23,654 nucleotides of DNA from a virus (IMGVR_UViG_3300005563_000625:1-23654), one strand, 5' to 3'; shown: positions 2,614 through 23,537, numbered from the stretch's first letter. Notes: a model not told the origin generated them from the letters alone. Program-made: numbers and translations.

Positions 2614-2619
2614 ATGACA
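2614..2619 (+). promoter_or_regulatory. TGACA-type box before small terminase
   Basis: ATGACA followed by C, ending 14 bases before the ATG at 2634. The bases between (CCCGCCGGCAGTGA) have no SD. The GC-rich spacer resembles that before the large terminase gene. Confidence 0.4.
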
Positions 2620-2633
2620 CCCGCCGGCAGTGA

Positions 2634-3548
2634 ATGACCGATCCGAACACGCCACAGAGCGATATTGAACTCGCCGAAGCTCTCGGCACTGACCGCAAGA
2701 GCTTGAGGCGCTGGCGCGAAAAGCCCGGGAATGCCCCACAGACGCGAGACGTGGGGCAATGGGTCGAATTCATGCGCAAGCACCTCCTTGGGCCGTATAG
2801 CCCTCAGCGCGGCTACGGTGGATTGCCGCGCCCTGGCGCCGAAGATCCAGACGAGGAAGAAGACGACGCGCCCGGCGCCGAGAGCATGTCGCCACCTCGC
2901 TACCGCGGCAGCATCGAGGACTGGAAACGCGCCCAGATTGCGAAGGTGGTCGAGAAAGACTCCATCGGCATTCACACCCTCAAGGGCACACTCTTGGAAG
3001 CTTGCGAGATGGAAGTCCTGATTGGCTCGATGCTGAGCGCGATCGCGACCAAACTTCACCAATTCCCATTCACGGCCGCGAAATCCATGATCGGCCATCG
3101 TGACGCAGGCGACGCGGAGAACGCGCTTCGGTATGAGATGGAGGCGGTGATTCTCGACATCCACAACAGCGCCTACACAACAGAGCGCGCGGTTGCGGAT
3201 GCGGTCGCCTCGCTGCCATTCGACGCCGAGACAGAATCGCTACTGACCTTGATTCTCTTCGAAGGCCAAGACCGCGCTGCATTCCTGCAACTCGTCACGT
3301 CGGTTGCGACTCAGGCGCTTCGGCAGATTGGCCGGCGGGTGATTGAGACGGGCCAGCGTTCGCAGGAGTCACCTGAATTGGAGCCGACCACTCCCACCGA
3401 ATCAATCGGTGAACGAATTGCACCCTCCGTAGAATCTCGCGGCGCTCAGCAGGAGTCAGCAACGAGCGGAAAGAAATCTCGGAAGCGTTCACGCCCGCAG
3501 CCTACACCACCGCCCGGAGAAGTCGAGGGCGCTATGGTGGAGGGTTGA
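2634..3548 (+). CDS. Terminase small subunit-like protein
   Basis: This encodes 304 residues. It should recognise the packaging site and hand DNA to the large terminase. The N-terminus has a helix-turn-helix of the Nu1 type (residues 9-30, IELAEALGTDRKSLRRW), followed by an RDVGQWVEFM helix. After an acidic linker (about residues 65-85, EDPDEEEDD) comes a helical core (DWKRAQIAKVVEKDS to about 235) suited to oligomerisation. The tail is basic (GKKSRKRSRPQ). Lambda gpNu1 is 181 residues, so this protein is large for the family. The call rests on the HTH, the domain order and the position just before a GpA-family large subunit. The adjacent coding sequences are separated by 402 bases, whereas lambda Nu1 and A overlap. 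Confidence 0.75.
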   Translation: MTDPNTPQSDIELAEALGTDRKSLRRWREKPGNAPQTRDVGQWVEFMRKHLLGPYSPQRGYGGLPRPGAEDPDEEEDDAPGAESMSPPRYRGSIEDWKRAQIAKVVEKDSIGIHTLKGTLLEACEMEVLIGSMLSAIATKLHQFPFTAAKSMIGHRDAGDAENALRYEMEAVILDIHNSAYTTERAVADAVASLPFDAETESLLTLILFEGQDRAAFLQLVTSVATQALRQIGRRVIETGQRSQESPELEPTTPTESIGERIAPSVESRGAQQESATSGKKSRKRSRPQPTPPPGEVEGAMVEG

Positions 3549-3574
3549 CAGCGCCCGTAGCTTGTCAGCAGTTA

Positions 3575-3710
3575 TTTAAAATTTGAGTTGAGGCGCCCAT
3601 GACACAGGAACCAAGCGCATTCTAGAGGCCCGCCAGATGAAGGTGATTCCGTGCACGCGTCTAGGCCATAACGCACAAAACGTGTCGGGCGTCTCAACTC
3701 AGATTTTAAA
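3575..3710. repeat. 24-base inverted repeat forming a long hairpin next to the tRNA
   Basis: The left arm at 3575-3598 and the right arm at 3687-3710 are reverse complements at 22 of 24 positions. In RNA both mismatches become G-U wobbles (U with G, and G with U), giving an unbroken 24-bp stem. After a 2-base bulge the stem continues with GACAC (3601-3605) pairing GTGTC (3682-3686). The remaining 76-base loop (3606-3681) includes the palindrome TCTAGA. The right arm ends at the base just before the tRNA. It could be a structured leader, a packaging-related RNA or DNA site, or a mobile-element remnant. Confidence 0.75.
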
Positions 3711-3782
3711 AGCGGGGTCGTCAAGTGGTAAGACGCGAGGCCCATAACCTCGTTATCGAGAGTTCGATTCTCTCCCCCGCCA
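3711..3782 (+). tRNA. tRNA with CAT anticodon (Met or Ile2 type)
   Basis: This folds as a 72-base cloverleaf: acceptor GCGGGG/CCCCGC, three-bp D stem (GTC/GAC) with GG in the loop, anticodon stem CGAGG/CCTCG with loop CCCATAA, variable TTATC, T stem GAGAG/CTCTC with loop TTCGATT, and discriminator A. The anticodon is CAT. Three oddities are seen. Position 33 is C rather than the near-universal T. Base 1 is A facing C72, an unpaired first position reminiscent of initiator tRNAs. CCA is not encoded. The anticodon stem lacks the three G-C pairs of initiators, so elongator Met or lysidine-modified Ile is more likely. It sits between the terminase genes. Confidence 0.85.
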
Positions 3783-3822
3783 CTTCTTTGAGCGGTAGCC
3801 CTAAAGTTTGGGGCCTTGGGAT

Positions 3823-3872
3823 GCAACGCAAGCGAGATGCTGACCACGCAAGTCTGTAAGGTCGCTTGTTGC
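3823..3872. repeat. Imperfect hairpin downstream of the tRNA
   Basis: GCAAC and AAGCGA (separated by a GC bulge) pair with TCGCTT and GTTGC, giving 11 pairs around a loop of about 27 bases. No T-run follows. With the large inverted repeat on the other side, it means the tRNA is flanked by structure on both sides. The rest of 3783-3950 shows no gene. Confidence 0.45.
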
Positions 3873-3931
3873 CTTGTTCGGAAAGTGCGTGCGAACCGAA
3901 AGCAGCGTAACGAACTGCCCGCTCATTCTCG

Positions 3932-3937
3932 CTGACA
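3932..3937 (+). promoter_or_regulatory. TGACA-type box before large terminase
   Basis: CTGACA followed by C, ending 13 bases before the ATG at 3951. The spacer ends GGGCA directly before ATGTC, exactly as in front of the gene at 7462. Confidence 0.45.
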
Positions 3938-3950
3938 CGCCCGCCGGGCA

Positions 3951-6092
3951 ATGTCAGCAACTCGAAACCCGCGAGGCTTCCTCGACGCCCGCGCATGGCT
4001 CCGCGGACTCATCAAGGCGGTCATCCGGCCACGTCCCCGCACACGGCTTTGGAAGTGGATTGACCAGCACGTAAAGATCCCTGAGAGCAGCGGCGGGCCG
4101 AATCCTGGCCGGATGCGCACGGGCCGCTTCCCGATCTTCCGAGGGCTCTACGACCTAGCGCAGCAACGACAGGTCCATTTCCTCACGCTCTGCTCCAGCG
4201 CGCGCGCTGGCAAGACGCTGTTCTCCATCTGCCTCGTCCTCTACTGGATCGCTGAGCGGTTCGGACAAGTTGTGTGGCTCGATCCCACGCGCAATAGTGC
4301 GCGGAAATTGGTCCGCGATGAAATCGAGGACTTCCTTTTGGAGTGCACGCCGGTCCGATCGCTGGCGGTCATCACCAAGAAGGCTTGGACCACGCTGGAG
4401 AAGGCGTTTCGCGGGAAGCGGTTTCGGCTGGTAGGCTCCGGCGCCGAGGCTGACTTGCACGGATTCAACGCCGAGCTTGCAATCGAGAACGAACTTGACC
4501 GCTGCCGAGCGTCCACGTCGGACGACGCGGCCAGTAGCGATAAGATCGAAGCCCGCACGGCGCTTTTCGCGTCATCGCGGCTCATCGTTCGCAACTCCAC
4601 CCCAGGCGAGAAAGGCGAGTTCGGGCCAATCTGGGTCCACTTCCAAGCGGGCTCGCAGCACTACTGCTATCTCCCCTGTCCGCATTGCTCGGCAGAAAGA
4701 GAGAAGGAAATGGGTGTTGGTCCGCAATGGAAACCACTGCTCCCAACGGAAGAGGAAACCGAGCCTGGGCGCTCGCCGCTCAGCTACGACCCGCGGCTCG
4801 CAGGGTGGCAACGCCTCACATTCTTCGTTGAGAAGGCAATCGTGCCCTTCGACATCGATCTAAACCCGCTGAAGGACGCCAACGCCAACGTGGCGCCGCG
4901 CACCGAATGGCGCGAGGAAGTCACTGGTAAGGCGCTGTTCGAAAAGTTCGCCATCATGGAGGACCGGCCAGCGGACGCCGACCCAACACGGCTGGAGAAG
5001 AAACGCGTTGGATGGAGAATCGACGGCGTTCGCAAAGGCACAACTTTCGAATGCGCCCACTGCAAAAAGGAAATCGAGCAGGTTGACCAAAAGTGGATGT
5101 TGGACCGTTACCGTTGGGTCGCTCACAACCCCTACGCCGATGAGGAGCACGTCAGCGCCCACACATGGGCCTTCTACTCGCCATTCCAAGCGTGGGGCGT
5201 GCTGGCGGTCGAATTTCTCCAGGCGAAAGGCAATCTCGGGCTGCTCATCAAGTTCTGGAACCTCGTCCTTGGAAAACCCTTCATCCGCAGTGGCACGGCC
5301 ATCAAAGAGGATGACCTTGACCGCGTAATCGGTCGCTGCCCGGTGCCGTATCTTCAGGGTCAGATCCCGCTGGAAGCCGAATACCTCACGATCACGGTTG
5401 ACCGGCAGGGAACGTCCCGCTGGTACACAATCCGAGCGTGGGGCATCCTGTGGGACCATCCCGAATTACAATCATGGTCCGCGCTCATCGATTGGGGCGA
5501 GATTGGAGGGGACAAGCAGATTCCCGAAAAGGCCGGGCATGTGCCGGATGCCAACGGCAACCTTCGCCGCTTCAAATACACCTCCAAGGACGGCCAGACC
5601 GCCCGCGAATATGCCGTGCTCTCCGGCTTGTTCGATGCCGGTTACGAGAAGGATCAAGTGTGGGAGTTCTGCCGCACTCAATCAACATGGCTTTCCCCCT
5701 CGCGCGGCATGAAAGACACCAATATGGGCGGGAGTCTCATACGCGTGGAGCCCGTGATGGACGGTGAAATCGATGAGGTTCGCTACTGGTCAAACTACTT
5801 CGCGGCCGATCTCTATTATTCGTGCATTCTCGACGGCAAGAATTCAGCCGGAGTCATCAACTGGTGGCTTCCAACCAACATCGATGCCGACTATCGGAAG
5901 CAGCTCACGGACGAATACCAGGGCGAGGACCGCGGCAAACGCGTCTGGATGACCCGTACGAAGACAAACCACCTTGGCGACTGCGAGAAGCTTCAGCGGG
6001 TGCTTTCAGGCAAGATCGAGGAGGCGCTGGACGAGCTGCGCGACGCCCGCGCAGCCGCCGAAGCGAAGAAATCTGAGCCGCCCCCGGTATGA
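3951..6092 (+). CDS. Terminase large subunit, GpA family
   Basis: This encodes 713 residues. It is the ATP-driven DNA translocase and nuclease that fills the prohead. The N-terminal ATPase has a Walker A motif at residues 81-89 (CSSARAGKT) and VVWLDPTRNSAR at about 107-118. The Walker B region reads LAIENELDR at about 176-184, where the usual Asp-Glu appears as Asn-Glu. A zinc-ribbon pair follows: CPHC at 243-246 and CAHC at 368-371. The roughly 120-residue spacing is far larger than usual for the family. Next come GpA hallmarks (HVSAHTWAFYSPFQAWG, FWNLVLGKPF) and the nuclease domain starting LTITVDRQG. The length is close to lambda gpA (641) plus the insert. The start lies 14 bases past a TGACAC box and no SD is visible. 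Confidence 0.93.
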   Translation: MSATRNPRGFLDARAWLRGLIKAVIRPRPRTRLWKWIDQHVKIPESSGGPNPGRMRTGRFPIFRGLYDLAQQRQVHFLTLCSSARAGKTLFSICLVLYWIAERFGQVVWLDPTRNSARKLVRDEIEDFLLECTPVRSLAVITKKAWTTLEKAFRGKRFRLVGSGAEADLHGFNAELAIENELDRCRASTSDDAASSDKIEARTALFASSRLIVRNSTPGEKGEFGPIWVHFQAGSQHYCYLPCPHCSAEREKEMGVGPQWKPLLPTEEETEPGRSPLSYDPRLAGWQRLTFFVEKAIVPFDIDLNPLKDANANVAPRTEWREEVTGKALFEKFAIMEDRPADADPTRLEKKRVGWRIDGVRKGTTFECAHCKKEIEQVDQKWMLDRYRWVAHNPYADEEHVSAHTWAFYSPFQAWGVLAVEFLQAKGNLGLLIKFWNLVLGKPFIRSGTAIKEDDLDRVIGRCPVPYLQGQIPLEAEYLTITVDRQGTSRWYTIRAWGILWDHPELQSWSALIDWGEIGGDKQIPEKAGHVPDANGNLRRFKYTSKDGQTAREYAVLSGLFDAGYEKDQVWEFCRTQSTWLSPSRGMKDTNMGGSLIRVEPVMDGEIDEVRYWSNYFAADLYYSCILDGKNSAGVINWWLPTNIDADYRKQLTDEYQGEDRGKRVWMTRTKTNHLGDCEKLQRVLSGKIEEALDELRDARAAAEAKKSEPPPV

Positions 6093-6127
6093 GGCTTGAC
6101 AGCCATGCTTCCATTGATCTCACAAAT

Positions 6128-6319
6128 ATGAAGTACTGCCAAATCGGTATCGTGCTCCTTCAGGTTTTAGGCTTCTTAGCTACCCTCCGCACTGATGTTT
6201 GCGGTCGCCCAAAGAAAGACCCCGGCGGGTATAGTGATGTCGTCTCTACCGTCATCGTTTTTGCCCTTCTGGCGTGGCTATATTGGGGCGCTGGAGCATA
6301 TTCGCACGTATCCGAATAA
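6128..6319 (+). CDS. Small two-helix membrane protein
   Basis: This encodes 63 residues with two hydrophobic segments: CQIGIVLLQVLGFLATL (about residues 3-20) and STVIVFALLAWLYWGAGAY (about 42-60). A short charged loop (RTDVCGRPKKDPGG) lies between them. The ATG at 6128 puts the first membrane segment right at the N-terminus, which fits small membrane proteins. The alternative ATG at 6089 overlaps the terminase stop and would add 13 polar residues; the choice is not settled. A TTGACA box lies at 6096-6101. Function is unknown; a role in lysis timing or exclusion would be a guess. Its place between terminase and connector genes is unusual for a lambda-type order. Confidence 0.6.
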   Translation: MKYCQIGIVLLQVLGFLATLRTDVCGRPKKDPGGYSDVVSTVIVFALLAWLYWGAGAYSHVSE

Positions 6320-6320
6320 C

Positions 6321-6860
6321 ATGATCGACCGAGACGCCGCAGAATCGTCATTGGCAAGTTACCGGCCCGACTTCGCCGAAGGCATCGACACCCCCGCCGA
6401 CAAGTTGCGCGACATCGTTGCGCCGTTTGTTCCAATGGACCGCCGCGCGCGTGTGTTTGCTGAGATAGACGCCGTTCTGGAAAGCATCGATAGCGACTCG
6501 AAAGCATCGCCAGAGGATGAGATGCGGAAGATTTTCGAGTTCCTTCGGGCTGTCTTCGGTGACTCGCGACTACCGGAGGACGTGCGGCGCCGCGCCTGCG
6601 CTACGGCCATCGGCGCGAACGATCCAGCCTTCGGCAAGAGTTACCAGCACTACGCAGATTTCTTCGGTGTTACCCGCGCCTGCGTCCATGCGGACGCTCG
6701 GGAGGCACAGCAGCGTTATGGGCTCCATGCACGGCGCGACAAATGCCCTGCGGCGCGCGAGAAGAGCCGCGAACTTGCCAGCACTCGAAAACCCGCCATC
6801 ACCAGCGCCGTGGCGGTCAAGAATGCACGCGGTGCGCTCTCGTTCTTCCCTGCACTATGA
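6321..6860 (+). CDS. HTH-like putative DNA-binding protein
   Basis: This encodes 179 residues from ATG (MIDRDAAES), one base after the membrane gene's stop. The frame is open further upstream, but that part overlaps the membrane gene. The first 80 residues are helical and acidic (ADKLRDIVAPFVPMDRRARVFAEIDAVLE). At about residues 107-133 the sequence HYADFFGVTRACVHADAREA looks like a helix-turn-helix, with FGVTRA as turn and recognition-helix start. The C-terminus is basic and low in structure. The plan resembles small sigma-like or regulatory HTH proteins, but no family is identified. It could control the late genes or be a second DNA-recognition factor for packaging. Its stop overlaps the next ATG. 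Confidence 0.65.
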   Translation: MIDRDAAESSLASYRPDFAEGIDTPADKLRDIVAPFVPMDRRARVFAEIDAVLESIDSDSKASPEDEMRKIFEFLRAVFGDSRLPEDVRRRACATAIGANDPAFGKSYQHYADFFGVTRACVHADAREAQQRYGLHARRDKCPAAREKSRELASTRKPAITSAVAVKNARGALSFFPAL

Positions 6861-7369: not shown

Positions 7370-7395
7370 CGTAAGGCGTTCAAAATCAGTATAAG

Positions 7396-7417
7396 CAGCC
7401 GCCAAAATTGGCGGCTG
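7396..7417. repeat. Perfect 10-bp inverted repeat before the connector gene
   Basis: The arms CAGCCGCCAA and TTGGCGGCTG are separated by AA. As RNA this gives a 9-bp stem with an AAAT loop. No T-run follows on either strand, so a simple terminator is unlikely; an operator or an RNA processing hairpin is possible. It lies inside the 92-base gap 7370-7461, which holds nothing else but a TTGACA box. Confidence 0.65.
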
Positions 7418-7442
7418 ACCGGAAAACAGCGATTCCGAGGCA

Positions 7443-7448
7443 TTGACA
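7443..7448 (+). promoter_or_regulatory. TTGACA box before connector gene
   Basis: TTGACAC ends its six-base core 13 bases before the ATG at 7462. The spacer ends GGGCA, matching the large-terminase leader. A -10 element is missing at the expected distance. Confidence 0.45.
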
Positions 7449-7461
7449 CCCTGCGCGGGCA

Positions 7462-7749: not shown

Positions 7750-9386
7750 CGCTGAATCCGCTTTCGCTCATTAGCTGGCTCATCGGACGCGGCGGCAGTC
7801 CCGCGTTTGCCGACACGCTCAATTCGTCCATCGATCGCGCCAATGTGCGCTTCATCGTGCCGGATGATTCCAGGCTCTACATTCGCCGTTGGACGCGGAA
7901 AAACCTGATCGATAAGGCGGAATGGCTCTGGCAGAACTTCGGCATCGTGAAGGAGGGCGTGGCTGGCATCGCTCGCCATACGGTCGGCAAGGGCATCAAC
8001 CTCCAGATTGATTCGGACGATGATGAATGGAACCAACTCGCCGAAGATGATTTCGAATCCTACGCGCTCACCAAGGAGCGATGCGACCTCGCCGGCCGCC
8101 GCACGTTCTACCAGGCGCAAGAGCACGCGATCTCGCAGCGCATCCTCCGCGGTGAGTTCTTTGCCGCGAAAACCGAAAACCCCGATTGGGGCAACGAGCC
8201 GTGTTTCCAGATTTACGACACAGAGGAAATCATCTCGCCTCCGAACCCGCCCGCAAACAGCTATGTTGTGGACGCACCTTCACTCGCCATTGCGGCGGTC
8301 GCCCCCGGGTCGGCCCCATCTCAAGACTCGATCATCTTCGACGGCGTTGAGCTGAACCGCAATAGCCGAGCGGTTGGCTATTGGGTTCGCACGGTCGGCT
8401 TTGAAGCCGCACGCGTCCCGCGGGAGCGAATGATTCATTGGATGAAGCCGCACGCGACCAACCAAGTGCGCGGCATCACCGAACTCGCGCAGGCGGTCAA
8501 TTGCCTTGTGGACATCCACGAACTTAAGCGACTGACCACGCGAACGGCAAAGGCGCAGCAGCTTATTGCGCTCGTGCTGAAGGGTGTTGGCAAGAGCAAG
8601 GCCCGCGGCGCCATCGGTGCGATTCGCAACGCTGGCGTGAAGGACGATGGAACGCCAAACCCCGACACTGCCCAGCTTGAGCAACTGGCCGGCGGCGCGG
8701 GCGCTGGCATCGCCTACCTCGATTCCGACGGGGACGCGAAGATGATTTCTCCCAACTCTCCCACTCCACTTGTGGAGGGGTTCATCACCGACCTACTGAT
8801 GCGGGATGCCACATCGGCACTCGGCGTCATGTCGGACTTTCTGTGGAACCCCAAGAACCTTGGCGGGTCGCAGATGCGTTTCGTACTGAGCAAGACGGAC
8901 CTTCTCTTTCAGATCCTTGGCTCTGACCTAATCGGCGAGTTTTGCACGCCGATCGCGTTCAACTACCTCCTGAATCGAATCGCTACCGGCAAACTACGAC
9001 CGCCGACGGACAAGAACTGGATGCTAAAACTGTCCTGGCAGACGCCACCTCGCGTCACGGTCGATAACGGCAACGAGGGCAACCTGCAAATCGAACTGTT
9101 GGCTAATGGGCTCATCACGCTTCGCCAGTACTGCAATGCCCGCGGGCTGAACTATCGCCACGAAATGCGGCAATGGATTCGCGAGCCCATCGAGTTCATC
9201 AAAATGGCCGCGCAGGAATTGAAAGACAGCAGTCTCGATCCGGAGCAGCAGCAGGCGATTCTTGAGCGCTGGAGCATGAACCTTCCGCTCTGGCGCCCGA
9301 ACAAACCGGGAGCGGTCGCGCCGCCGCAGGAAAACGAGCAGCCATCGAAAGACGGCGGAAATGACAAGGAGCAACAGGCGGCATGA
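7746..9386 (+). CDS. Portal protein, lambda gpB family
   Basis: This encodes 546 residues. Twelve copies form the ring through which DNA enters and to which the tail attaches. I placed the start at the ATG overlapping the connector stop (ATGA); the frame is open 26 codons further, but inside the neighbour. The N-terminus shows the family's pattern: a DTLNSSIDRANVRF helix, an RRWTRKNLIDKAEWLW helix, then GVAGIARHTVGKGINLQ at about residues 76-92. Later blocks include GELNRNSRAVGYW-like sequence, HWMKPHATNQVRGITELAQ, and the core helix LKRLTTRTAKAQQLIALVLK. The C-terminus is an acidic, glutamine-rich tail after PLWRPNKPG. Length matches gpB (533 residues). Confidence 0.92.
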   Translation: MTLNPLSLISWLIGRGGSPAFADTLNSSIDRANVRFIVPDDSRLYIRRWTRKNLIDKAEWLWQNFGIVKEGVAGIARHTVGKGINLQIDSDDDEWNQLAEDDFESYALTKERCDLAGRRTFYQAQEHAISQRILRGEFFAAKTENPDWGNEPCFQIYDTEEIISPPNPPANSYVVDAPSLAIAAVAPGSAPSQDSIIFDGVELNRNSRAVGYWVRTVGFEAARVPRERMIHWMKPHATNQVRGITELAQAVNCLVDIHELKRLTTRTAKAQQLIALVLKGVGKSKARGAIGAIRNAGVKDDGTPNPDTAQLEQLAGGAGAGIAYLDSDGDAKMISPNSPTPLVEGFITDLLMRDATSALGVMSDFLWNPKNLGGSQMRFVLSKTDLLFQILGSDLIGEFCTPIAFNYLLNRIATGKLRPPTDKNWMLKLSWQTPPRVTVDNGNEGNLQIELLANGLITLRQYCNARGLNYRHEMRQWIREPIEFIKMAAQELKDSSLDPEQQQAILERWSMNLPLWRPNKPGAVAPPQENEQPSKDGGNDKEQQAA

Positions 9387-10213
9387 GACTCCAGCGCATC
9401 ACCGAACTCGTCTATCACCGCCCTTGGCTAATCACGCCGCAGGCGCATGAGTCGATTCGCGGGCTCATAGAGCGGAAACTTTCGAGCGACGACACTCAGG
9501 CCGGCTTCTTCGATGACTTCGTTGTCTCGCGCAAGGAGCCGAAGGTAGAGAACGGCGTTGGAATCGTTCACATCATGGGGCCAATCGGAATTGGTCTTTC
9601 CTCCATTGAAAAGACGTGCGGAAGCACAGACTTGAACGACCTCGGCGACGAGATTGATGCCGTTCAGAAGGAAGGGGCAACCCGTCTGATGCTGGTTGTT
9701 GATTCTCCTGGCGGAACGGTCGGCGGCGTTCCCGAGATGGCCGACAAGATTGCGAATCTCTCAATTCCTGCTTTCGCCTACGTCCCGCCCGGCGGAATGA
9801 ATTGCAGCGCCGCATACTACCTCACCGTTGGCTGTGATCGTATCTACGCCAGCCCGTCGGCTGACGTTGGTTCCATCGGCGTCTATCTGCCGTGGGTGGA
9901 TCGCACGGCCGCATTTGCGGCAATGGGGTATTCGGTCGAACTCATCACCAACAAGGAGGGCGACCTGAAGGGCGCTGGTTATCCAGGCACCAGCCTGACC
10001 GATGAGCAACGCGCCAATCTGCAAGAAGGCGTGCAGCAGGTTTTCGATGATTTCGCCGCGCACGTTCGAGCATGCCGACCGGACAGCATGAAAGACGATA
10101 GCATGCGGGGGCAATCGTTCTTGGCGCGAGAAGCGTACGACCGCGGACTCATTGACGGCGTTACGGATTACGACTCTGCAATGCGAACCCTACGGAATTT
10201 CCGTTGCCGTTGA
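9383..10213 (+). CDS. Phage capsid protease, S49 (gpC/SppA) family
   Basis: This encodes 276 residues. It is a serine-lysine protease that trims portal and scaffold inside the prohead. The typical sequence order is present: GIVHIMGPIG (59-68), VDSPGGTVGG (106-115), the nucleophile in NCSAAYYL with Ser142, SADVGSIGVY (159-168), and Lys196 in NKEGDLKGAGYPGTSLTDEQ as the general base. The length is shorter than lambda gpC (439), whose C-terminal part encodes the scaffold in an internal frame. Here the scaffold is a separate gene just downstream. The start overlaps the portal stop, and AAGGAG lies 11 bases before it. Its stop codon lies inside a TTGACA box. Confidence 0.93.
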   Translation: MRLQRITELVYHRPWLITPQAHESIRGLIERKLSSDDTQAGFFDDFVVSRKEPKVENGVGIVHIMGPIGIGLSSIEKTCGSTDLNDLGDEIDAVQKEGATRLMLVVDSPGGTVGGVPEMADKIANLSIPAFAYVPPGGMNCSAAYYLTVGCDRIYASPSADVGSIGVYLPWVDRTAAFAAMGYSVELITNKEGDLKGAGYPGTSLTDEQRANLQEGVQQVFDDFAAHVRACRPDSMKDDSMRGQSFLAREAYDRGLIDGVTDYDSAMRTLRNFRCR

Positions 10214-10215
10214 CA
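10210..10215 (+). promoter_or_regulatory. TTGACA box containing the protease stop codon
   Basis: The TGA stop of the protease gene is bases 2-4 of TTGACA, followed by C. The ATG of the scaffold gene lies 17 bases beyond. No SD is present in the A-rich spacer apart from a weak GAAG at the ATG. Confidence 0.4.
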
Positions 10216-10232
10216 CGAAACAAAAGCCGAAG

Positions 10233-10673: not shown

Positions 10674-10709
10674 CTCTCCCCACTCACTCTCTCCTAACCG
10701 CTCCGAACT

Positions 10710-11663
10710 ATGGCCTACCAGTACCTCACGATGCTCGATCTCGCGAAGATCAACAAGTCCGACCAGGCTGTTGGTTTGATCGAGGAAAATCTCAACTCCG
10801 CACCGGAGGCCATGGTTCTGCCGGCGCGGACCATCGTGGGGACGAGCTACAAGACGCTCGTCCGCACCGATTACGCCCGCGGCTCTTTCCGCTCTCCGAA
10901 CTCCGGTGTTGAGCCCACGAAGAGCACGTATGTGAACAAACAGTTCGAGACGTTCTACTACGATGGCCAGATGGAGATGGACAACGCCATCGCGACCGGC
11001 GACGACCAGGGTGTCGCGCATGCTCTCGCGCTGGAAGCGGACGGCCATGGCCGCGGCTACCTTCTCCAGATCGGCAAGCAAGTCTGGTATGGCATCAACA
11101 CCATCAACGGTGATGCCCTCGGCTTTCCTGGCGCCCTTCAGTCCGTCGATTCCTCGCTCGTTGTGGATGCGGGCGGCACGACCGACAGCGTAGCCTCCAG
11201 CGTGTGGGCCGTCGTGGCCGATCCGCGCTTCATGGGGCTCACCTTCGGCAATAGCACCGTCCTTCAGGTCGGCGAATGGCGCAAGCAGAGCGTGACCCGC
11301 TCCAGCAAGGAAATGACCGCGTGGAAGAACAGCCTTGAGGGGTGGATCGGCATCGAGGCGCTTTCGAAATACGCCTTCGGTCGCATCAAGAAGCTCACGA
11401 CCGACAGCGGCAAGGGCCTGACCGATACGCTGCTCTCGCAGCTCATCGCTAATTTCCCGGTTGGCGTGAAGCCCACCCACCTCTTCATGACCCGCCGCAG
11501 CCGCCAGCAGCTCCAGGCGTCCCGCACGGTCACGCTGTTCGGTCAGGGTTCCGGCAAGCCTTCCGGCGCACAGGCAACCATCGCCCCGGTTCCGACGGAA
11601 TACGACGGTATCCCGATCATCGCGACCGACTCCATCCTCAACACGGAAACCCTCGCCCTCTGA
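10710..11663 (+). CDS. Major capsid protein (HK97-fold, GP7-like)
   Basis: This encodes 317 residues. It should form the icosahedral shell after scaffold and protease have acted. Support comes from position (protease, scaffold, then this gene), length and pattern. The N-arm (MAYQYLTMLDLAKINKSDQ) is followed by a long E-loop-like segment (GSFRSPNSGVEPTKSTYVNKQFET), then helices rich in Ala and Gly (HALALEADGHGRGYLLQIG). SSVWAVVADPRFMGLTFGN at about 171-189 corresponds to the 'SVW.V......G' block of GP7-type capsid proteins. HLFMTRRSRQQL and YDGIPIIATDSI near the C-terminus are classic for HK97-fold coat proteins. The leader (10674-10709) is pyrimidine-rich and has no SD or TGACA box. Confidence 0.88.
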   Translation: MAYQYLTMLDLAKINKSDQAVGLIEENLNSAPEAMVLPARTIVGTSYKTLVRTDYARGSFRSPNSGVEPTKSTYVNKQFETFYYDGQMEMDNAIATGDDQGVAHALALEADGHGRGYLLQIGKQVWYGINTINGDALGFPGALQSVDSSLVVDAGGTTDSVASSVWAVVADPRFMGLTFGNSTVLQVGEWRKQSVTRSSKEMTAWKNSLEGWIGIEALSKYAFGRIKKLTTDSGKGLTDTLLSQLIANFPVGVKPTHLFMTRRSRQQLQASRTVTLFGQGSGKPSGAQATIAPVPTEYDGIPIIATDSILNTETLAL

Positions 11664-12086: not shown

Positions 12087-12111
12087 TCGAGAAGAAACAC
12101 TTCCAGGGTTG

Positions 12112-12149
12112 ACCCCGGTGGCCGCACGGTCGCCGGGGTTTTTCCTTTT
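12112..12149 (+). terminator. Rho-independent terminator after the capsid block
   Basis: The arms ACCCCGGTGGCC (12112-12123) and GGTCGCCGGGGT (12128-12139) form a 12-bp stem with two G-U pairs and a GCAC loop. TTTTT, CC and TTTT follow directly. It should end or strongly reduce transcripts made from the scaffold and coat genes before the tail genes. Confidence 0.9.
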
Positions 12150-12155
12150 CTGACA
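12150..12155 (+). promoter_or_regulatory. TGACA-type box just after the terminator
   Basis: CTGACAC begins on the base after the T-run and its core ends 13 bases before the ATG at 12169. Because it comes directly after a terminator, the box is either retained in a read-through transcript or part of a new start region. Confidence 0.45.
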
Positions 12156-12519: not shown

Positions 12520-13325
12520 TGAGCGAAGGTGAGGTTGATCCGTCAGGATTCCTGACCATGTGCGAATCGCTCGCGCATGTGGCCGCAACCACTTACGAGC
12601 GCTCCCTTGTCTCGCAGGTGGGCGCGGTCTTGAAGAATTGCCTCGCTCACACGTCGGTTGCCAGCGCGGAGAATATCAAGCTGATGGTCAAGAAGCGCCT
12701 CGGCTACGTCGAGTTCTCGGATGGGACGGTCATTGCGCAGTGGCGAAAGGCGGGCGACGCCGAGATGTTCCTCTCACCGTCCACATTTCCAAAGTACCAG
12801 AATCGATGGCCAAAGAAGACCCCGAAGCCAGCAATGAAGGGTGGTATGTCTTGGCATCAGATGAACGACCCACAACGACGCTGGGCCGATACCCGGTGGG
12901 CTGACTTCCAGCGGAAAGACTCGCGGCTGGAGAAGCAGGCCGAGAAGAACCGTCGATCAGATCTCAAGAAGGCGCTCGCCGCTCGCGGGCTCGCGAAGCA
13001 ATCCTGGCTCCAAATCGCTGAAAGCCTCGGGCTCACCGCCGAGCAGATCGGCGCTGCGGCGTACGTGCTCCGCGCCAAGCCTTCGAACGGCAAGACCTAT
13101 CAGAACGGGACGAGCAGCAAAATGGGCGGCACTGACGAAATCGTGATAGAAATCGAGAACAGCAGCAACCTGCTCACCCATTTCAGCAGGCCGTCGGGAT
13201 GGGACATCCTGCAGCAAGCGATGGACGCCCGGGTAAGCGCATTCGAGCGCGACCTCGCCAACGACGTTTTCAATGACATGGAGAACCGCATGAAGCGGTA
13301 TCCTGGCATCTACATTGACTCCTGA
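12519..13325 (+). CDS. Hypothetical neck/tail-junction protein
   Basis: This encodes 268 residues from the ATG overlapping the previous stop; a GTG one codon upstream is also possible. The first third holds helices (TMCESLAHVAATTYERSLVSQVG). The middle is very basic (NRWPKKTPKPAMKGG, then RKDSRLEKQAEKNRRSDLKKALAARG). It includes an HTH-like stretch QIAESLGLTAEQIGAAAYVL at about 165-184. The C-terminal part (RPSGWDILQQAMDARVSAFERDLANDVFNDMENRM) is helical. Genes at this place in other phages often encode neck or tail-completion proteins related to gpZ or HK97 gp10. The basic middle and HTH-like part are unusual for that role. No family assignment is possible. Confidence 0.6.
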   Translation: MSEGEVDPSGFLTMCESLAHVAATTYERSLVSQVGAVLKNCLAHTSVASAENIKLMVKKRLGYVEFSDGTVIAQWRKAGDAEMFLSPSTFPKYQNRWPKKTPKPAMKGGMSWHQMNDPQRRWADTRWADFQRKDSRLEKQAEKNRRSDLKKALAARGLAKQSWLQIAESLGLTAEQIGAAAYVLRAKPSNGKTYQNGTSSKMGGTDEIVIEIENSSNLLTHFSRPSGWDILQQAMDARVSAFERDLANDVFNDMENRMKRYPGIYIDS

Positions 13326-14190: not shown

Positions 14191-14196
14191 TTGACA
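14191..14196 (+). promoter_or_regulatory. TTGACA box directly after the fibre-like gene
   Basis: TTGACAC follows the TAA stop with no spacing. Its core ends 14 bases before the ATG at 14211. The spacer ends GAGAGCAG, which has GAG but no good SD. Confidence 0.45.
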
Positions 14197-14696: not shown

Positions 14697-14702
14697 TTGA
14701 CA
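14697..14702 (+). promoter_or_regulatory. TTGACA box before tail-tube gene
   Basis: TTGACAC with its core ending 16 bases before the ATG at 14719. The spacer CTCACACGGAATCACC has no SD. GACACTCAC is also found at the 18410 box. Confidence 0.45.
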
Positions 14703-15118: not shown

Positions 15119-15126
15119 GCCGCTCT

Positions 15127-17840: not shown

Positions 17841-18427
17841 GCGACCCAGCCAACGCCCTCTACGACGGGAACCATGAGACACCGTTCCTCTGCAAGCCTC
17901 CGCTGCCGTGGATCGATGCGGAGACGCGGGCGAACATGCTGCAGCTCACCTACCGGGTGCGCGTGCCGTTCTACAAGCGGTTTCCTCGCAGTGCACGGAA
18001 TGCGCTGGCCCGCTTCTCCTACTTGGTCGAGCAGCCGAAGCCGCGGCCCGTTGGCGGTGACTTGCTGGAATACGATTTGGTTTTCTCGACTCTTCCGGTT
18101 CGTCCTGACGAGCCGCTTCCGTGGGTAATGAACTATCAGGTGATCACGGCTGGCGGCACTGAGATTGCGGAAATCGCCGTGCCGCTCACCGCCCGGGCGA
18201 GTTGGAAATACTACTACACTTCCGAGCCGTTCAAGATCCAACTCAAGAAGGCATGGAAGGCCGTCCTGATTGGCGGCGCGATTCTCTACACCGGCACGAA
18301 ACCGAAGGACGGCGCTACTACGTGGCTCGCTGAAGACGAGTCGTTCGAGCGGTGGAAGGATTCGGACATTTGGGCCGTTCGCACTGTAACCGTCCCCTCA
18401 CCGGAAACCGTGACACTCACAAGCTGA
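17837..18427 (+). CDS. Putative distal tail protein
   Basis: This encodes 196 residues. It is proline- and aromatic-rich, with beta-type segments: LQLTYRVRVPFYKRFP, YLVEQPKPRPVGGDLLEYDLVFSTLPV, WVMNYQVITAGGTEIAEIAVPL and YYYTSEPFKIQLKKAW. The C-terminus has SFERWKDSDIWAVRTVTVPS. A gene directly after the tape measure usually encodes a distal tail or tip protein. The family is not recognised. The start overlaps the tape-measure stop. The last codons contain a GTGACAC box used by the next gene. Confidence 0.5.
   Translation: MSDPANALYDGNHETPFLCKPPLPWIDAETRANMLQLTYRVRVPFYKRFPRSARNALARFSYLVEQPKPRPVGGDLLEYDLVFSTLPVRPDEPLPWVMNYQVITAGGTEIAEIAVPLTARASWKYYYTSEPFKIQLKKAWKAVLIGGAILYTGTKPKDGATTWLAEDESFERWKDSDIWAVRTVTVPSPETVTLTS
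18410..18415 (+). promoter_or_regulatory. TGACA-type box inside the end of the previous gene
   Basis: GTGACAC spans Val-Thr codons at the end of the 17837 gene. Its core ends 13 bases before the ATG at 18429. It is conserved despite lying in coding sequence, which argues for a function at the DNA or RNA level. Confidence 0.35.
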
Positions 18428-18428
18428 T

Positions 18429-18833: not shown

Positions 18834-18836
18834 CGA

Positions 18837-18842
18837 TTGACA
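18837..18842 (+). promoter_or_regulatory. TTGACA box before fibre gene
   Basis: TTGACA followed by T, ending 15 bases before the ATG at 18858, three bases after the previous stop codon. The spacer TCCTGACGGGTTCGA has no -10-like bases. Confidence 0.45.
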
Positions 18843-18857
18843 TCCTGACGGGTTCGA

Positions 18858-20165
18858 ATGCGCTTCTACTTCAACACGGCCAACGGGGCACTTGGCACTT
18901 CGCTGAACGATGGCAGCGGTGACGCGTCCGGTGCGGTAAAGCGCGGCGACACGGAGCCCGTAGAAGTCGTTTTCCACAAGAACGGCGTCCTTCTCGACCT
19001 CGACCCCGTTGCGAGCGCGGAGACGCTGAAGTTCGGCGTGAAGGTGCCGACGTTCGAGGATGGCTCGTACGTGTTCGCGGCGACCTCGGGATGGGTGAAG
19101 AGCAATGGAACCGTTTTCACGGACTGCGGCACGACCAGTGCGAGCGCAATTATCACCAGCGCCACGGCGGTTTTCAACGAGGGCGACGTTGGCCTCAGCA
19201 TCACCGGGGATGGTATTCCGGCAGGCTCAACAATCATCGCCATTGGCGACGCCACGCACGCGACCATTTCCGCAGCCGCCACGCTGACCAGCGGCGGCTC
19301 GCCAATCACGCTGACCATCATCGGCCGCGAGACGGTCTACACCGCTTCCCCCTCGTTCAATACCACCAAGGGCAACAACCTACTCGGCTACGACCCTGAC
19401 GGATTTGCCGAAGTCACCGAAATCAGGACCGTTGCCGGGAACGCTACCGGGGTCGGATTCAAGCTCTACGACAACGCCGGATCGGTCGGCGTCTGGATCG
19501 ATCTCGACAACGGCGGGACCACGATCCCAAGTCAGGCGTCGGCGTGTGCGCGAGCGATTGAAATCACGACCATTGCAACGGGCGACAGTGCGCCGACCAA
19601 GGCGACCAAAATTGCCGCAGCGCTTACCTCGGATGGCAAGTGGGTCGCGACCGCTTCTGGTGATGTCGTCTCGATTATTGACGCGTCCATTGGCACGCGG
19701 ACGAGCGCGGCAGACTTCACGGGCAACCAGGCGACCACCTTCAGTTTCCTCCGCTGGATTGCCGGGAGTGCGCCCAACACAATGGCGAACGTGCTGGTCT
19801 ATCCGCTGGAGGCGGAAATTACATACACGGCGCTCGGCAACACGAAGAGTTCGCAGACGTTCGAACTCGACCTGATTTTCCGGCTGAACAACGGCGGCGA
19901 GTCTGACCCGATTCCGAGCTACGGCAGCCAGTGGAACCGCACGGCTATCAGCAATGGCGCGACGTATGTTGACGTGACTTTTGCGACGGCGTTCGGAACG
20001 GCTCCGCTGCTCCTCGGTCCAACGGTTGTGAAGGCCAGCAACTCCGATGACAACATTTTCGCATCAGGCGCGGTGATCCCGACCACGACCGGATTCCGCG
20101 TCTACCTCTCCGGCGCCACGCCGAACGGGAACTACAAACTTGACTGGTTCGCTTACCCGCTTTGA
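18858..20165 (+). CDS. Tail fibre with lectin-like C-terminal domain
   Basis: This encodes 435 residues. Residues 1-80 (VKRGDTEPVEVVFHKNGVLLDL) look like an upper-baseplate attachment domain of the BppU type. Residues about 87-157 are a beta module with ITGDGIPAGSTIIAIG and TISAAATLTSGGSPITLTI; it separates SYVFAATSGWVKSNG from YTASPSFNTTKGNN, as if inserted. The middle (YDPDGFAEVTEIRTV...) is beta-rich. The C-terminus (about 350-435: NGATYVDVTFATAFGTAPLLLGP, then TTGFRVYLSGATPNGNYKLDWFA) has the pattern of H-type-lectin-like or tip domains that face the receptor. It should be a host-binding fibre. The fold assignment is inferred. Confidence 0.7.
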   Translation: MRFYFNTANGALGTSLNDGSGDASGAVKRGDTEPVEVVFHKNGVLLDLDPVASAETLKFGVKVPTFEDGSYVFAATSGWVKSNGTVFTDCGTTSASAIITSATAVFNEGDVGLSITGDGIPAGSTIIAIGDATHATISAAATLTSGGSPITLTIIGRETVYTASPSFNTTKGNNLLGYDPDGFAEVTEIRTVAGNATGVGFKLYDNAGSVGVWIDLDNGGTTIPSQASACARAIEITTIATGDSAPTKATKIAAALTSDGKWVATASGDVVSIIDASIGTRTSAADFTGNQATTFSFLRWIAGSAPNTMANVLVYPLEAEITYTALGNTKSSQTFELDLIFRLNNGGESDPIPSYGSQWNRTAISNGATYVDVTFATAFGTAPLLLGPTVVKASNSDDNIFASGAVIPTTTGFRVYLSGATPNGNYKLDWFAYPL

Positions 20166-20168
20166 TCC

Positions 20169-22163
20169 ATGGACACGCTGATTAACAATCTGAAGGTGAC
20201 GGGAACGCTCAAGCTCCCAACGAGCGCGGCGAGTTATGGCATCGTGGGCGATGGCGTTGTCCTGTCTGATGTTTCAGCTACGAGCGGTAGCCCAACTGTT
20301 ACCTCGGCTGGCGCTTCATTCGTTGCGGCTGATGTCGGCAAGGCTGTTACGCTATACAGCGGCAAGCATCAATCCTTCGCCTGTTCTTTCACTGGCAGCA
20401 GTACAAGCGTAACGTGCTCCAGCACGACCAACCTCGTTGCGGGAATGCGGGTGAGTGCGTGCAAGTCGGTTGCAACCACGGGGAACCTGACGAGCAATTC
20501 TACTACCATCTCCAACTTGGGGACCACTACCGGATTGGTCGTTGGAATGGTCGTGAGTGGCGACGGCATCCCTGGCGGCGTCACAATCAGCAGCATCAAC
20601 ACGGGTGCAAGCTCGATGGTGATTTCGGATGTCGCAACTGGAACGGGAACCGGCGTGAGCCTCACGTTCTCGAAATACATCGTTCCGTTGGATGCGACCA
20701 TTGCCAGCATCACCAATTCTACGACGTTTGTCCTATCTGCCGCGGCTACCAATACACTGACTGGATTGACGGCGGATTTCGTGCCGGGGTATTTGCAGAC
20801 GACCGTCTCAGCGGTCAACAGCGCAACCAGTATTACCTTGGCGAACAACGCAGCGGCCACGGTGACGAATGGCCGGCTGGTTTACGGTACGGACAACACG
20901 TCCGCTCTGACCTCGGCGTTGTCCACTATTAAGACAGCGGGCGGCGGAAAGCTCCAATTTGATCACGGGCTCTACATCATTGCCGGTGCGCTTCAGGACG
21001 GAAGTGTTCGTAATGCGGTGATTCTCGTTCCCAACGACACGACCGGCCAAATCACAAGCCTTGAACTTTGCGGACCCTGCGTGCCCGCGCTTGAAAGCAA
21101 CGGCTTCCTTGATTATCCGCCGTCGCTCACGGGCGCCGTTATCTTCTGCCCTACTGCGGCGAGCGGCACCGATCCTTGTATGTTTGGCGGAAACTGCTCC
21201 GCATCTCCGGGGGCGGTCTCTTCGATTGTGCTTCGTTGCGCAGACCTCACATTCCGGCGCCCGCAATGGTCGCTGCTTGGGGAATTCAATTTCAGAACGG
21301 GCGGTGCGCTGGCGTTCGAGAGGTGTGTGATCGAGCCGGATTACGTGCTCTACTCGGAGTTTTTGGCGCACGCCTACCCGTCCGCGCAGACTTCCATCAT
21401 CTTCCCAAATTCAAACAACGGTGGATACGTTCGGTTCATCTCCAGTAGGATTGGCGGAAGCGGCACGGCCATCAAAGGGGCGCAGCATCTTTCTATCATC
21501 AACTCCGAGTTTGCCGCCTGTCGTGTCGCGGTGATGATCGATAGTGGCGGCGGCGGCGGCTCGATCGAGGCGATGAACTGTCACATGGTTGGGTGCGGAT
21601 ATAACTTCTACGTTCCGTCTGGAGGTGTGACTGGAATCTTCAGCGTGTTCGGGACTGAGTTTGAGAACCAGGCTGCTGGCCCGTTCGTCAATTTTTGGGA
21701 TTTCTACGACGAGTCAGGCTCTGCGATGTCTGGAAACTGCACCATTGTTCTTCTGGCCTCCGCTCAAGCTCGCGTCTCGTCATCCAATACCTGCGTCAGC
21801 TACATTTCTGGATCTCATCGCGAGATGATTAACCCGCCGACGTTGCTCCTCAGCGATTCGCAATACCTAGTTCTGCGTGGCAATCGTGACGGAGCCGGAA
21901 TGGGATTCCAGTTGCAAGGGTTCGACGCAACCGTGTTGGGCTTTGCTCTGGCAACTCCGTCCTTCGGCGGCCAATTCATCCTGCAATCTGGAAACGGAAA
22001 GACGGTCTTCGTGCGCAATAATAGCGGGGTTGGACTGAGCATTGATCCCACAACCGGCCAGATCGTCGGAAGCACGCTCAAGCTGTCCGCGCTTCCAACC
22101 AGCGCCTCCGGTCTTTCGTCTGGTGAGATTTGGTCCAACTCGAACGTCCTCACCAAAGCATGA
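20169..22163 (+). CDS. Tailspike-like receptor-binding protein (pectate-lyase-type beta helix)
   Basis: This encodes 664 residues. The N-terminal part includes an AADVGKAVTLYSG segment (residues 53-65) and the module GMVVSGDGIPGGVTISSIN at about 126-144. YGTDNTSALTSALSTIKTAGGG, then KLQFDHGLYII (about 239-271), is the start motif of right-handed beta-helix tailspikes of the Pectate_lyase_3 type. The following 300 residues (ELCGPCVPAL, VILVPND, RCADLTFRRPQW, HLSIINSEFAACRVAVMID) show the strand-turn repeats of a beta helix. The C-terminal end is short (LSALPTSASGLSSGEIWSNS), with the sequence of a common phage fibre terminal segment. It probably binds or cleaves surface polysaccharide; catalytic residues cannot be named. 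Confidence 0.8.
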   Translation: MDTLINNLKVTGTLKLPTSAASYGIVGDGVVLSDVSATSGSPTVTSAGASFVAADVGKAVTLYSGKHQSFACSFTGSSTSVTCSSTTNLVAGMRVSACKSVATTGNLTSNSTTISNLGTTTGLVVGMVVSGDGIPGGVTISSINTGASSMVISDVATGTGTGVSLTFSKYIVPLDATIASITNSTTFVLSAAATNTLTGLTADFVPGYLQTTVSAVNSATSITLANNAAATVTNGRLVYGTDNTSALTSALSTIKTAGGGKLQFDHGLYIIAGALQDGSVRNAVILVPNDTTGQITSLELCGPCVPALESNGFLDYPPSLTGAVIFCPTAASGTDPCMFGGNCSASPGAVSSIVLRCADLTFRRPQWSLLGEFNFRTGGALAFERCVIEPDYVLYSEFLAHAYPSAQTSIIFPNSNNGGYVRFISSRIGGSGTAIKGAQHLSIINSEFAACRVAVMIDSGGGGGSIEAMNCHMVGCGYNFYVPSGGVTGIFSVFGTEFENQAAGPFVNFWDFYDESGSAMSGNCTIVLLASAQARVSSSNTCVSYISGSHREMINPPTLLLSDSQYLVLRGNRDGAGMGFQLQGFDATVLGFALATPSFGGQFILQSGNGKTVFVRNNSGVGLSIDPTTGQIVGSTLKLSALPTSASGLSSGEIWSNSNVLTKA

Positions 22164-22339
22164 GCCACCCCACCCACACCGCAACAAACGGCATCCTCGG
22201 AATGATCGGCAGCCTTTTCGGCCTGATCGTCTCCGCGATTCCGTATGTCGAGACGGGCCTGCGCCTCGCCTCGCTGGTGGTCGGTATCGCCGTGGGTGTG
22301 TTGACAATTCGCAATCTGTTGAGGGGACCAAAGCAATGA
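22160..22339 (+). CDS. Small two-helix membrane protein, holin candidate
   Basis: This encodes 59 residues from the ATG overlapping the tailspike stop (ATGA); an upstream in-frame start at 22130 would lie inside the spike gene. Hydrophobic segments cover about residues 11-29 (GILGMIGSLFGLIVSAIPY) and 35-52 (RLASLVVGIAVGVLTIRN). The end is basic (RNLLRGPKQ). Two short helices with a basic tail and a place next to another membrane protein and a lipoprotein fit a holin or antiholin. No family-specific motif is seen. Confidence 0.6.
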   Translation: MSHPTHTATNGILGMIGSLFGLIVSAIPYVETGLRLASLVVGIAVGVLTIRNLLRGPKQ

Positions 22340-22548
22340 AAACCACCATCAGCGGAATCCTCGCGGCACTCAGTTCGTTCTTGGCCTTCATCGCACTCGC
22401 GCCGCCCGAGCTCCAGAACCAAATACCGCAGGTGTTTCCTGAGAAGTATCGAGGAACGATTGCGCTCATTCTCGCCTTCCTCGCGTTCGGCTTTCGCTCC
22501 TACCAATCGCACGCCACGGCTGACAAGCCGCCACAGAAGGAACCATGA
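22336..22548 (+). CDS. Holin-like membrane protein
   Basis: This encodes 70 residues starting MKTTISG. The ATG overlaps the previous stop, with GAGGGGA about nine bases upstream as a possible SD. Membrane helices lie at about 4-22 (TISGILAALSSFLAFIALA) and 40-55 (GTIALILAFLAFGFRS). A periplasmic or cytoplasmic loop with PPELQNQIPQ lies between them, and the tail is charged (ADKPPQKEP). Two-helix proteins of this size in pairs are typical for holin/antiholin genes. The open frame continues far upstream to 22042, but only as a shadow of the spike gene. Confidence 0.6.
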   Translation: MKTTISGILAALSSFLAFIALAPPELQNQIPQVFPEKYRGTIALILAFLAFGFRSYQSHATADKPPQKEP

Positions 22549-22838
22549 CGCGAATCCTCCCACTACTGGCCTTCGCTCTGCTCGGCTGTGCTGCCCCAAA
22601 CGTCCCAACCGTTGGCATCGTGCCAGACCCAGCCGATGCGCGGTGGACCTGGCAGAACACCGGCTACAGCCGCTCGTACGGAACGTGGTCGGATTGGCAG
22701 CGCTATTTGAACTCTCGCAACGCAGTGCTGAAGCCGGTTCCAGCGTGGCCCCACTACGACGCGAACACCCGATACACGCTCCAGCCGGGCCTTGAATCTC
22801 TCGATCACTACCTAACCAGACAACCAACCGACCCATAA
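22545..22838 (+). CDS. Small lipoprotein (outer-membrane spanin candidate)
   Basis: This encodes 97 residues. MTRILPLLAFALLGC is a lipoprotein signal with Cys15 as the lipidated residue. The mature part is rich in Pro, Trp and Tyr (DARWTWQNTGYSRSYGTWSDWQRYL, then PAWPHYDANTRY). It has AAGGAA before the ATG, and its start overlaps the holin-like gene's stop. The place after holin-like genes suggests an outer-membrane spanin of the Rz1 type, but it lacks the proline-rich form of Rz1 and a matching inner-membrane partner is not evident. Superinfection exclusion is another possible role for a phage lipoprotein. Confidence 0.6.
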   Translation: MTRILPLLAFALLGCAAPNVPTVGIVPDPADARWTWQNTGYSRSYGTWSDWQRYLNSRNAVLKPVPAWPHYDANTRYTLQPGLESLDHYLTRQPTDP

Positions 22839-22840
22839 TT

Positions 22841-23083
22841 ATGCACTACAGAAACGGCAGAGAAGCAAAGAACGGCGACAAGATCGTCCGCTTGAACGGC
22901 GGAAACATCGAAGCATTCGGCGTGCTGCACAGCGCGATACCCGGCAACGACTACTGCAACGGCAGTATTGCCGTGGTTCAGTCCGCTCAGGAATACGCCT
23001 GCATGTGCGACTGCATCCACATCGAAGACCTAGCGGCACTCCTCGCGGAGAAGGGGCTCGATAAACGCCCGGAAGGGAAGTGA
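22841..23083 (+). CDS. Small conserved-type phage protein (SH3/KOW-like)
   Basis: This encodes 80 residues. The N-terminus NGREAKNGDKIVRLNGGNIEAFGVL has the GD-hydrophobic pattern of small beta-barrel (KOW or SH3-like) domains. DYCNGSIAVV and YACMCDCIHIEDL add four cysteines toward the C-terminus. The end (LLAEKGLDKRPEGK) is a charged helix. Similar small 'NGR.AK.GD' proteins are scattered in phage accessory regions and have no known function. The ATG comes two bases after the lipoprotein stop and no SD is clear. Confidence 0.65.
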   Translation: MHYRNGREAKNGDKIVRLNGGNIEAFGVLHSAIPGNDYCNGSIAVVQSAQEYACMCDCIHIEDLAALLAEKGLDKRPEGK

Positions 23084-23088
23084 CCACT

Positions 23089-23457
23089 ATGAAAAACCTC
23101 CTCCTCTCCATCACCCTCATCGCTGCCGTCATTTGCCTGCCCGGCTGCGACACCGCCGGCAAGCTGACTCCGCAGGGTCAAGCCGTGCTCGATGTCGCCA
23201 AGCCGATCGCAGACGCGGCCATTGTCGCAGCCGCCGCGCATTACGGCGTTCCGCCTTCCTCATCCACGGCAGTAATTGCCGCAGTCGATTCCATTTGGGG
23301 CGCCTACATCCAAGCGCAGAATGGTCAGCCCGTGGACCAAGGCGCGACCGCACCGGAGATTGGGCGGGCCATCTCTTCCAACGTGCCTGCGGGCGCCACA
23401 CCGGCTCAGACAACGGCCATCCTGCAAGCTGCCGCGCAAGCTCTGACCGCCAAGTAA
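23089..23457 (+). CDS. Second small lipoprotein
   Basis: This encodes 122 residues from ATG (MKNLLLSITLIAAV). A GTG at 23080 overlapping the previous stop is an alternative start. The signal peptide ends in CLPGC with Cys20 as lipid site. The mature part is Ala-rich and helical (GQAVLDVAKPIADAAIVAAAAHYG, then TAVIAAVDSIWGAYIQ, and TPAQTTAILQAAAQAL). It resembles bacterial and phage putative lipoproteins of unknown function. It could act in lysis or exclusion. Two lipoproteins within 1 kb is uncommon in a phage late operon. Confidence 0.65.
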   Translation: MKNLLLSITLIAAVICLPGCDTAGKLTPQGQAVLDVAKPIADAAIVAAAAHYGVPPSSSTAVIAAVDSIWGAYIQAQNGQPVDQGATAPEIGRAISSNVPAGATPAQTTAILQAAAQALTAK

Positions 23458-23462
23458 CCGCC

Positions 23463-23537
23463 GTGAAACTCGCAATCGCAATCATCCTGGCAATCGGCGG
23501 GGTTGCCGTGTTGACAGCGGCGGCGATGCGAAGATGA
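23463..23537 (+). CDS. 24-residue membrane micropeptide
   Basis: A GTG start gives 24 residues: a VKLAIAIILAIGG core with one hydrophobic helix and an RR end. It lies five bases after the lipoprotein stop and overlaps the next ATG (ATGA), which supports real translation. The size and single helix resemble small phage membrane peptides. The last part of the gene contains TTGACA. Confidence 0.5.
   Translation: MKLAIAIILAIGGVAVLTAAAMRR

Follow-up and report, generated by a model that had tools for sequence, protein, structure and literature searches.

A start-anchored TTGACA box before late-module genes in a group of uncultured tailed phages

The initiation of translation without a Shine-Dalgarno (SD) sequence is an open question in bacteria and phages, and defined non-SD boxes are rare. 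Short elements of other kinds are known from phages: the T4 late promoter element, TATAAATA, lies at a variable distance from the start codon, and Com of phage Mu is a translational activator that works near the start codon of one gene, mom. The subject of this analysis is a box with the consensus (T)TTGACA(C), found 13-17 nt before start codons in a 23,654-nt stretch of viral DNA (IMGVR_UViG_3300005563_000625:1-23654), referred to as the window over its full length, which is a 23.7-kb piece of an uncultured tailed phage with 58.8% G+C. Like the T4 late promoters, the box is one short element placed before many late genes, from which it differs in sequence and in the variable distance seen in T4. 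Like the site of Mu Com action, it lies near start codons, and it differs in that Com acts on a single gene.

Non-SD initiation in Bacteroidota, as described in Flavobacterium johnsoniae, involves an A-rich stretch at -14 to -11 and Kozak-like adenines at -3 and -6 (PMC6847099). These starts resemble the boxed ones in being SD-poor and in carrying an upstream sequence signal, perhaps read by bS1, whereas the signal there is a genome-wide A-rich bias and here it is a defined hexamer at -19 to -14, followed by a C-rich spacer and limited to late genes. The SD sequence, too, is a short box that keeps a set distance from the start codon. TTGACA differs from it in sequence, lies at a longer spacing and has no known complement, and these phages have the SD itself before early genes. 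Phage-encoded bS21 has been tied to late-stage replication in phages of up to 331 kb (PMC9723584). It shares with the present case the idea of ribosomes turned to late phage messages; here, however, no bS21 scored above the cut-off in 20 relatives of the window, which gave one sub-threshold match. Some boxA sequences also have a 3' half similar to TTTGACA. In some leaders the box is followed by a small hairpin, as in boxA/boxB (nut) sites, but the upstream half of boxA is not conserved here and many copies stand at start codons.

Placement of the box in the window and its relatives

The first-pass annotation, made by eye from the sequence, had placed TGACA cores, in one case a TTGACT variant, 13-17 bases before twelve ATG codons of the window, and every one of these gaps proved exact on recount (Table 1). 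In the window, TTGAC or TGACA precedes 12 of 29 curated rightward starts and only 2 of 511 other plus-strand ATG or GTG codons (Fisher p 4e-15), where the zone tested had the T of TGAC at -17 to -23 and the boxes were observed at -18 to -22. When the start set was rotated randomly along the window, a mean of 0.34 starts was boxed; the maximum of 13 probably stems from rotations near the true register. The MRLQ N-terminus of the protease is kept among homologues from the boxed ATG at 9383 onward, which indicates that this start was called correctly.

The overall frequency of the motif is not raised. Against dinucleotide shuffles, TGACA occurs 28 times where 38 are expected and TTGACA 9 times where 9.7 are expected, so that the shuffle comparison proposed at the outset shows no excess in raw counts. 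What is unusual about the box is its position and strand, not its overall count: TTGACA and TGACAC each occur nine times on the plus strand, as had been counted for TTGACA, and never on the minus strand. Eight of the TGACAC copies precede starts, in agreement with the earlier tally, and the ninth (3600) does not. The claim that seven of the nine TTGACA copies lie between genes stands only if those at 3545 and 10210, which overlap the upstream stop codon, are counted; those at 22301 and 23511 lie within short open reading frames. The further observations that most boxed starts lack an SD, that no -10 element follows and that the leftward genes are unboxed were borne out as well: 11 of the 12 starts have no SD, the protease gene being the exception, no sigma-70 promoter match begins at any of the boxes, and the short leftward genes have none save at one doubtful internal ATG at 1043.

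About fifty related loci were fetched from viral contigs with protease, portal and terminase profiles, most of their terminases being 43-67% identical to that of the window. Their starts were assigned by a simple script (the first plausible ATG, else GTG or TTG), which would weaken a signal and not make one. Most counts in the relatives leave out genes of fewer than 90 codons, and the probabilities assume independence of genes after removal of homologues at 60-70% identity. The count in relatives that had been proposed was made on 479 of their non-redundant genes, with the window and its near-identical twin left out; TTGACA was the most enriched 6-mer at -26 to -8 (20 against 0.83 expected), followed by TGACAC and TTTGAC. 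In a set of 786 genes that included those of the window, the box surpassed all 180 permutations of its own letters (73 genes, median 6), and its position peaked sharply at -18/-19 and -21. The pattern TGACA-N(11-16)-ATG was found 146 times against 14 for its reversed form, both figures being sums of a table over 29 viral records, some of them redundant. Even lineages whose terminases are just 23-26% identical (L053-L055) gave 12 matches against 0 for the reversed-pattern control. Apart from the capsid genes, the distance to the start codon is thus fixed across unrelated genes.

Outside this group the box is scarce. In four unrelated annotated phages it stands at 3 of 155 starts, and a 17-base box pattern searched across all viral contigs gave 5 matches against 4 for a scrambled one, which indicates that the box is not widespread among viruses in general. 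No description of the TTGACA start box turned up in literature searches. Two candidate associations were rejected: apparently boxed integrase genes, whose matches are internal to coding sequence, and the idea that the box is merely the TGA stop codon of the upstream gene, which is true of just 5 of 68.

Within the consensus, T precedes TGAC in 74% of cases and A follows in 70%, after which C is commonest. The 13-17-nt spacer is C-rich and T-poor (about 10-13% T against 20-24% around it), often with GGC just before the start, and neither the 70 nt upstream nor the first codons show a second clearly conserved element. Likewise, no conserved positions were found at the distance of a -10 element, 16-18 nt after TTGACA. 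TTGACA contains no SD core, which would be complementary to the CCUCC of the 16S 3' end at a spacing of 5-9 nt. Between box and start, hairpins with stems of at least 5 pairs number 12 with GTG starts counted in and 4 with ATG starts only, where 2.2 are expected in either set; the excess rests largely on homologous terminase leaders, which supply many of the GTG starts, and such a hairpin is not claimed as a general feature. A nut site would have a full boxA upstream of TTTRACA and a boxB hairpin; here the hairpin is not robust and just TT is conserved upstream.

Restriction to the late module and to uncoupled starts

Fourteen longer records were mapped and oriented on the terminase, and genes were classed as early or late by position relative to the terminase genes. 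In these maps the boxes fall in the late module. With homologous genes counted once, 42 of 177 late genes are boxed and 0 of 93 early genes (p 5e-9), and the same holds for genes preceded by gaps of at least 10 nt (34/126 late, 0/57 early, p 8e-7). SD-like 5-mers show the opposite distribution, at 11 of 177 late and 23 of 93 early genes (p 3e-5). The box is therefore confined to the late module, whereas a host-wide motif would be expected in every class of phage gene; this restriction and the reversal of the SD-like 5-mers are new here. The early modules encode methyltransferase, ParB-like, HerA-like and DUF932 proteins.

The box also prefers starts that lack tight coupling to the gene before them. 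In the window, 9 of 12 starts with a gap of at least 8 nt (the first gene included) are boxed, compared with 3 of 17 with smaller gaps or overlaps (p 0.006). In the relatives, boxes precede 19 of 94 starts at gaps of 10-60 nt (20%) and 6 of 122 overlapping ones (5%; p 9e-4), and the strict SD is again reversed, with 24 of 85 at overlaps of -1 to -4 and none of 94 at gaps of 10-60 nt. It is known more generally that SD use at overlapping gene pairs can differ from that at de novo starts (PMC6728339).

A compact, late-only box anchored to starts and conserved across widely diverged phages would offer a clear sequence for reporter assays. It could improve the prediction of starts in a group of uncultured phages and point to a switch of late expression.

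A putative initiation element and competing explanations

Fixed spacing, replacement of the SD, uncoupled starts and use by unrelated genes fit a translation signal. The explanation favoured here, with a confidence slightly short of even, is that the TTGACA box may be a late-gene, non-SD initiation element acting on the mRNA. Located at about -19 to -14, upstream of the position of the SD helix, it would mark starts entered de novo and not by coupling. UUGACA on the mRNA could be recognised by the platform of the host 30S subunit, where rRNA or a protein such as bS1 would make a contact of a non-SD kind; alternatively, a late phage or host factor could bring the 30S subunit to UUGACA. The outcome would be raised initiation of structural genes late in infection. 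The box thereby hints that late phage proteins may be started or switched on in a manner not described before. A broader and more doubtful proposal is that the phages use two initiation codes, the early one consisting of SD sequences and coupling and the late one of UUGACA, with ribosomes switched by a late factor that might be a phage protein or an altered host ribosome.

The first-pass annotation had offered both a non-SD ribosome-binding signal and a late-gene regulatory site. The latter agrees with the distribution over the modules and the former with the spacing and the starts concerned, but a ribosome-binding site anchored purely to starts leaves several observations unexplained, and these weigh against an initiation element. 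About three quarters of late genes are unboxed in the standard zone, a proportion that may in part reflect crude start calls and missed short genes. Before the capsid genes of seven relatives, TTGACA stands at no fixed distance (first T at -25, -38, -46, -48, -49, -50 and -69); the leaders between it and the ATG are A/C-rich and G-poor, and further such leaders were observed. A non-coding element of about 90 nt, found in some twenty loci beside the large terminase gene and mostly just downstream of it, begins with TTGAC[A/T] without a start codon and occurs in both orientations. Terminator-like hairpins also lie just before boxes more often than before controls (13/112 against 15/327, p 0.013), and boxes directly follow terminators in the window (12111-12155) and in two relatives (L032 and L046). 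The capsid leaders, the non-coding element and the hairpins running into boxes favour a signal at the head of transcripts or an RNA site of wider role. An initiation element would cover the capsid leaders only if the 30S subunit can travel over a leader that is free of structure; the non-coding element would have to be a decoy or share a binding factor with it.

In the non-coding element, TTGAC[A/T] is followed by about 27 nt, often with YGGCRACTAG, then by a terminator stem with around ten pairs and, in most copies, a tail rich in T. The stem covaries, with compensatory changes at seven pairs, and TTGAC[A/T] is also present in seven copies found by a covariance model and not selected for it. 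Five copies are on the other strand, those of L045, L026 and L019 near the box of the next gene. The element may represent a gene for a small RNA or a site related to packaging, and the TTGACA at its head provides a second handle on the reader of the box.

Alternatively, the box could be the sole conserved part of a late promoter, used by the RNA polymerase of the host together with a factor from phage or host; transcripts would begin shortly after it, giving most late genes leaders of a few bases and capsid genes longer ones. A promoter of this kind, possible though rather unlikely, would explain the variable distance at capsid genes, the TTGACA heading a terminator-ended element in either orientation, sometimes near an opposite-strand box, and the terminator-like hairpins before boxes; a helix-turn-helix protein family with a weak resemblance to sigma region 4 is encoded behind the terminase in the window and many relatives. 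However, it would be needed at nearly every uncoupled late gene, its distance to the start codon varying by no more than 5 nt, it has neither a -10 nor any other element at a fixed distance, and the C-rich, T-poor and GC-rich spacer is poor for melting. A -35 role would moreover place the transcription start within the gene. Searches of 20 relatives revealed no clear sigma factor and, in a polymerase search made without a positive control, no phage RNA polymerase. The usual sigma-70 promoter is excluded, since a -10 element is missing and transcription would begin within the gene. The terminators also bear on an RNA site for antitermination or processing of a late operon, standing before genes and terminators, working by a logic like that of boxA and nut and resulting in read-through or in cut and protected messages. 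Boxes right after terminators and at the head of the terminator-ended element, together with the short hairpin after the box, speak for such a site, which is nevertheless unlikely: it does not explain the distance to the start codon, a boxA-like upstream extension (CTCT) is not conserved beyond TT, and the hairpin excess nearly vanishes with ATG starts.

A host-wide origin of the signal, as the ordinary non-SD ribosome-binding signal expected before most host genes, would be in keeping with its presence in distantly related phages and with the existence of SD-poor bacterial groups such as Akkermansia (PMC10783764). It is disfavoured because these phages have no box at any of their early genes and use the SD there more often, and an Akkermansia phage has no box within the zone at the starts examined, its single TGACA lying at -24, one base outside; this origin is accordingly given a low probability. 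Chance or composition is consistent with the unremarkable counts of TGACA and TTGACA in the window as a whole, but it is refuted by the positional enrichment and by independent replication in the relatives, and its probability is negligible. Compared with all of these, the initiation element is still the explanation preferred here, and it would require a reader. One lead is the small helix-turn-helix protein encoded after the large terminase (window 6321-6860; L038:12215-12745, L043:6376-6888, L051:1547-2053 and others). The family bears the motif RSxxEIGxxFGLxRAxVS and matches sigma-70 region 4 weakly in several relatives; cousins occur elsewhere in some relatives, a detectable copy is not present in every boxed phage, and the structure predicted for the protein is of low confidence (pLDDT 62).

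Features of the window and the phage group

The plus strand of the window carries a late module with large terminase, portal, head protease and major capsid genes, identified with PHROG profiles; most of the later genes of this module match no named family, and short genes reading leftward occupy 22-2023. No near relative at the DNA level was found among GenBank phages. The terminase is less than 30% identical to named phages among the matches listed, and matches in named phages and plasmids are remote in every case. Bacterial genomes were scanned twice with protease and terminase profiles, and no prophage relative came up. The boxes and related features are collected in Table 1.

Table 1. Boxes of the window, the capsid leader and copies of the non-coding element (window coordinates unless a locus is named)
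Feature	Position	Strand	Remarks
TGACA(C) box	2615..2619	+	14 nt before ATG 2634; putative small terminase subunit, first late-module gene
TGACA(C) box	3933..3937	+	13 nt before ATG 3951; large terminase, PHROG 15
TTGACA(C) box	7443..7448	+	13 nt before ATG 7462
TGACA box	9362..9366	+	16 nt before ATG 9383; head maturation protease; AAGGAG also present
TTGACA(C) box	10210..10215	+	17 nt before ATG 10233; overlaps TGA stop of protease gene
TGACA(C) box	12151..12155	+	13 nt before ATG 12169; right after terminator-like hairpin 12111-12140 and T tract
TTGACT variant box	13315..13320	+	13 nt before ATG 13334
TTGACA(C) box	14191..14196	+	14 nt before ATG 14211
TTGACA(C) box	14697..14702	+	16 nt before ATG 14719
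TGACA(C) box	18411..18415	+	13 nt before ATG 18429; within end of upstream gene
TTGACA box	18837..18842	+	15 nt before ATG 18858
TTGACA box	23511..23516	+	17 nt before ATG 23534
Major capsid leader, G-poor, unboxed	10674..10709	+	gene 10710-11663
Non-coding element copies	L018:12350-12443, L020:9761-9850, L032:12529-12618, L037:1863-1955, L046:10642-10731, L045:12009-12104(-), others

Major capsid genes of the group (L018:16558, L072:6368, L010:9198, L062:7472 and window 10710) have long, G-poor and A/C-rich leaders without an SD, unlike other late genes. In the window, the interval separating the putative small terminase gene from the large one holds a 24-nt inverted repeat (3575-3598 and 3687-3710) with 92% complementarity and 88 nt between its arms, the end of which (3710) abuts a tRNA-Met (CAT) gene at 3711-3783. 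Rfam families other than tRNA were not matched when the window, L017 and L021 were scanned. Additionally, relative L063 encodes a TET-associated glycosyltransferase domain (PF20691) at 8550-9521 on the minus strand, a hint that DNA bases may be modified in these phages.

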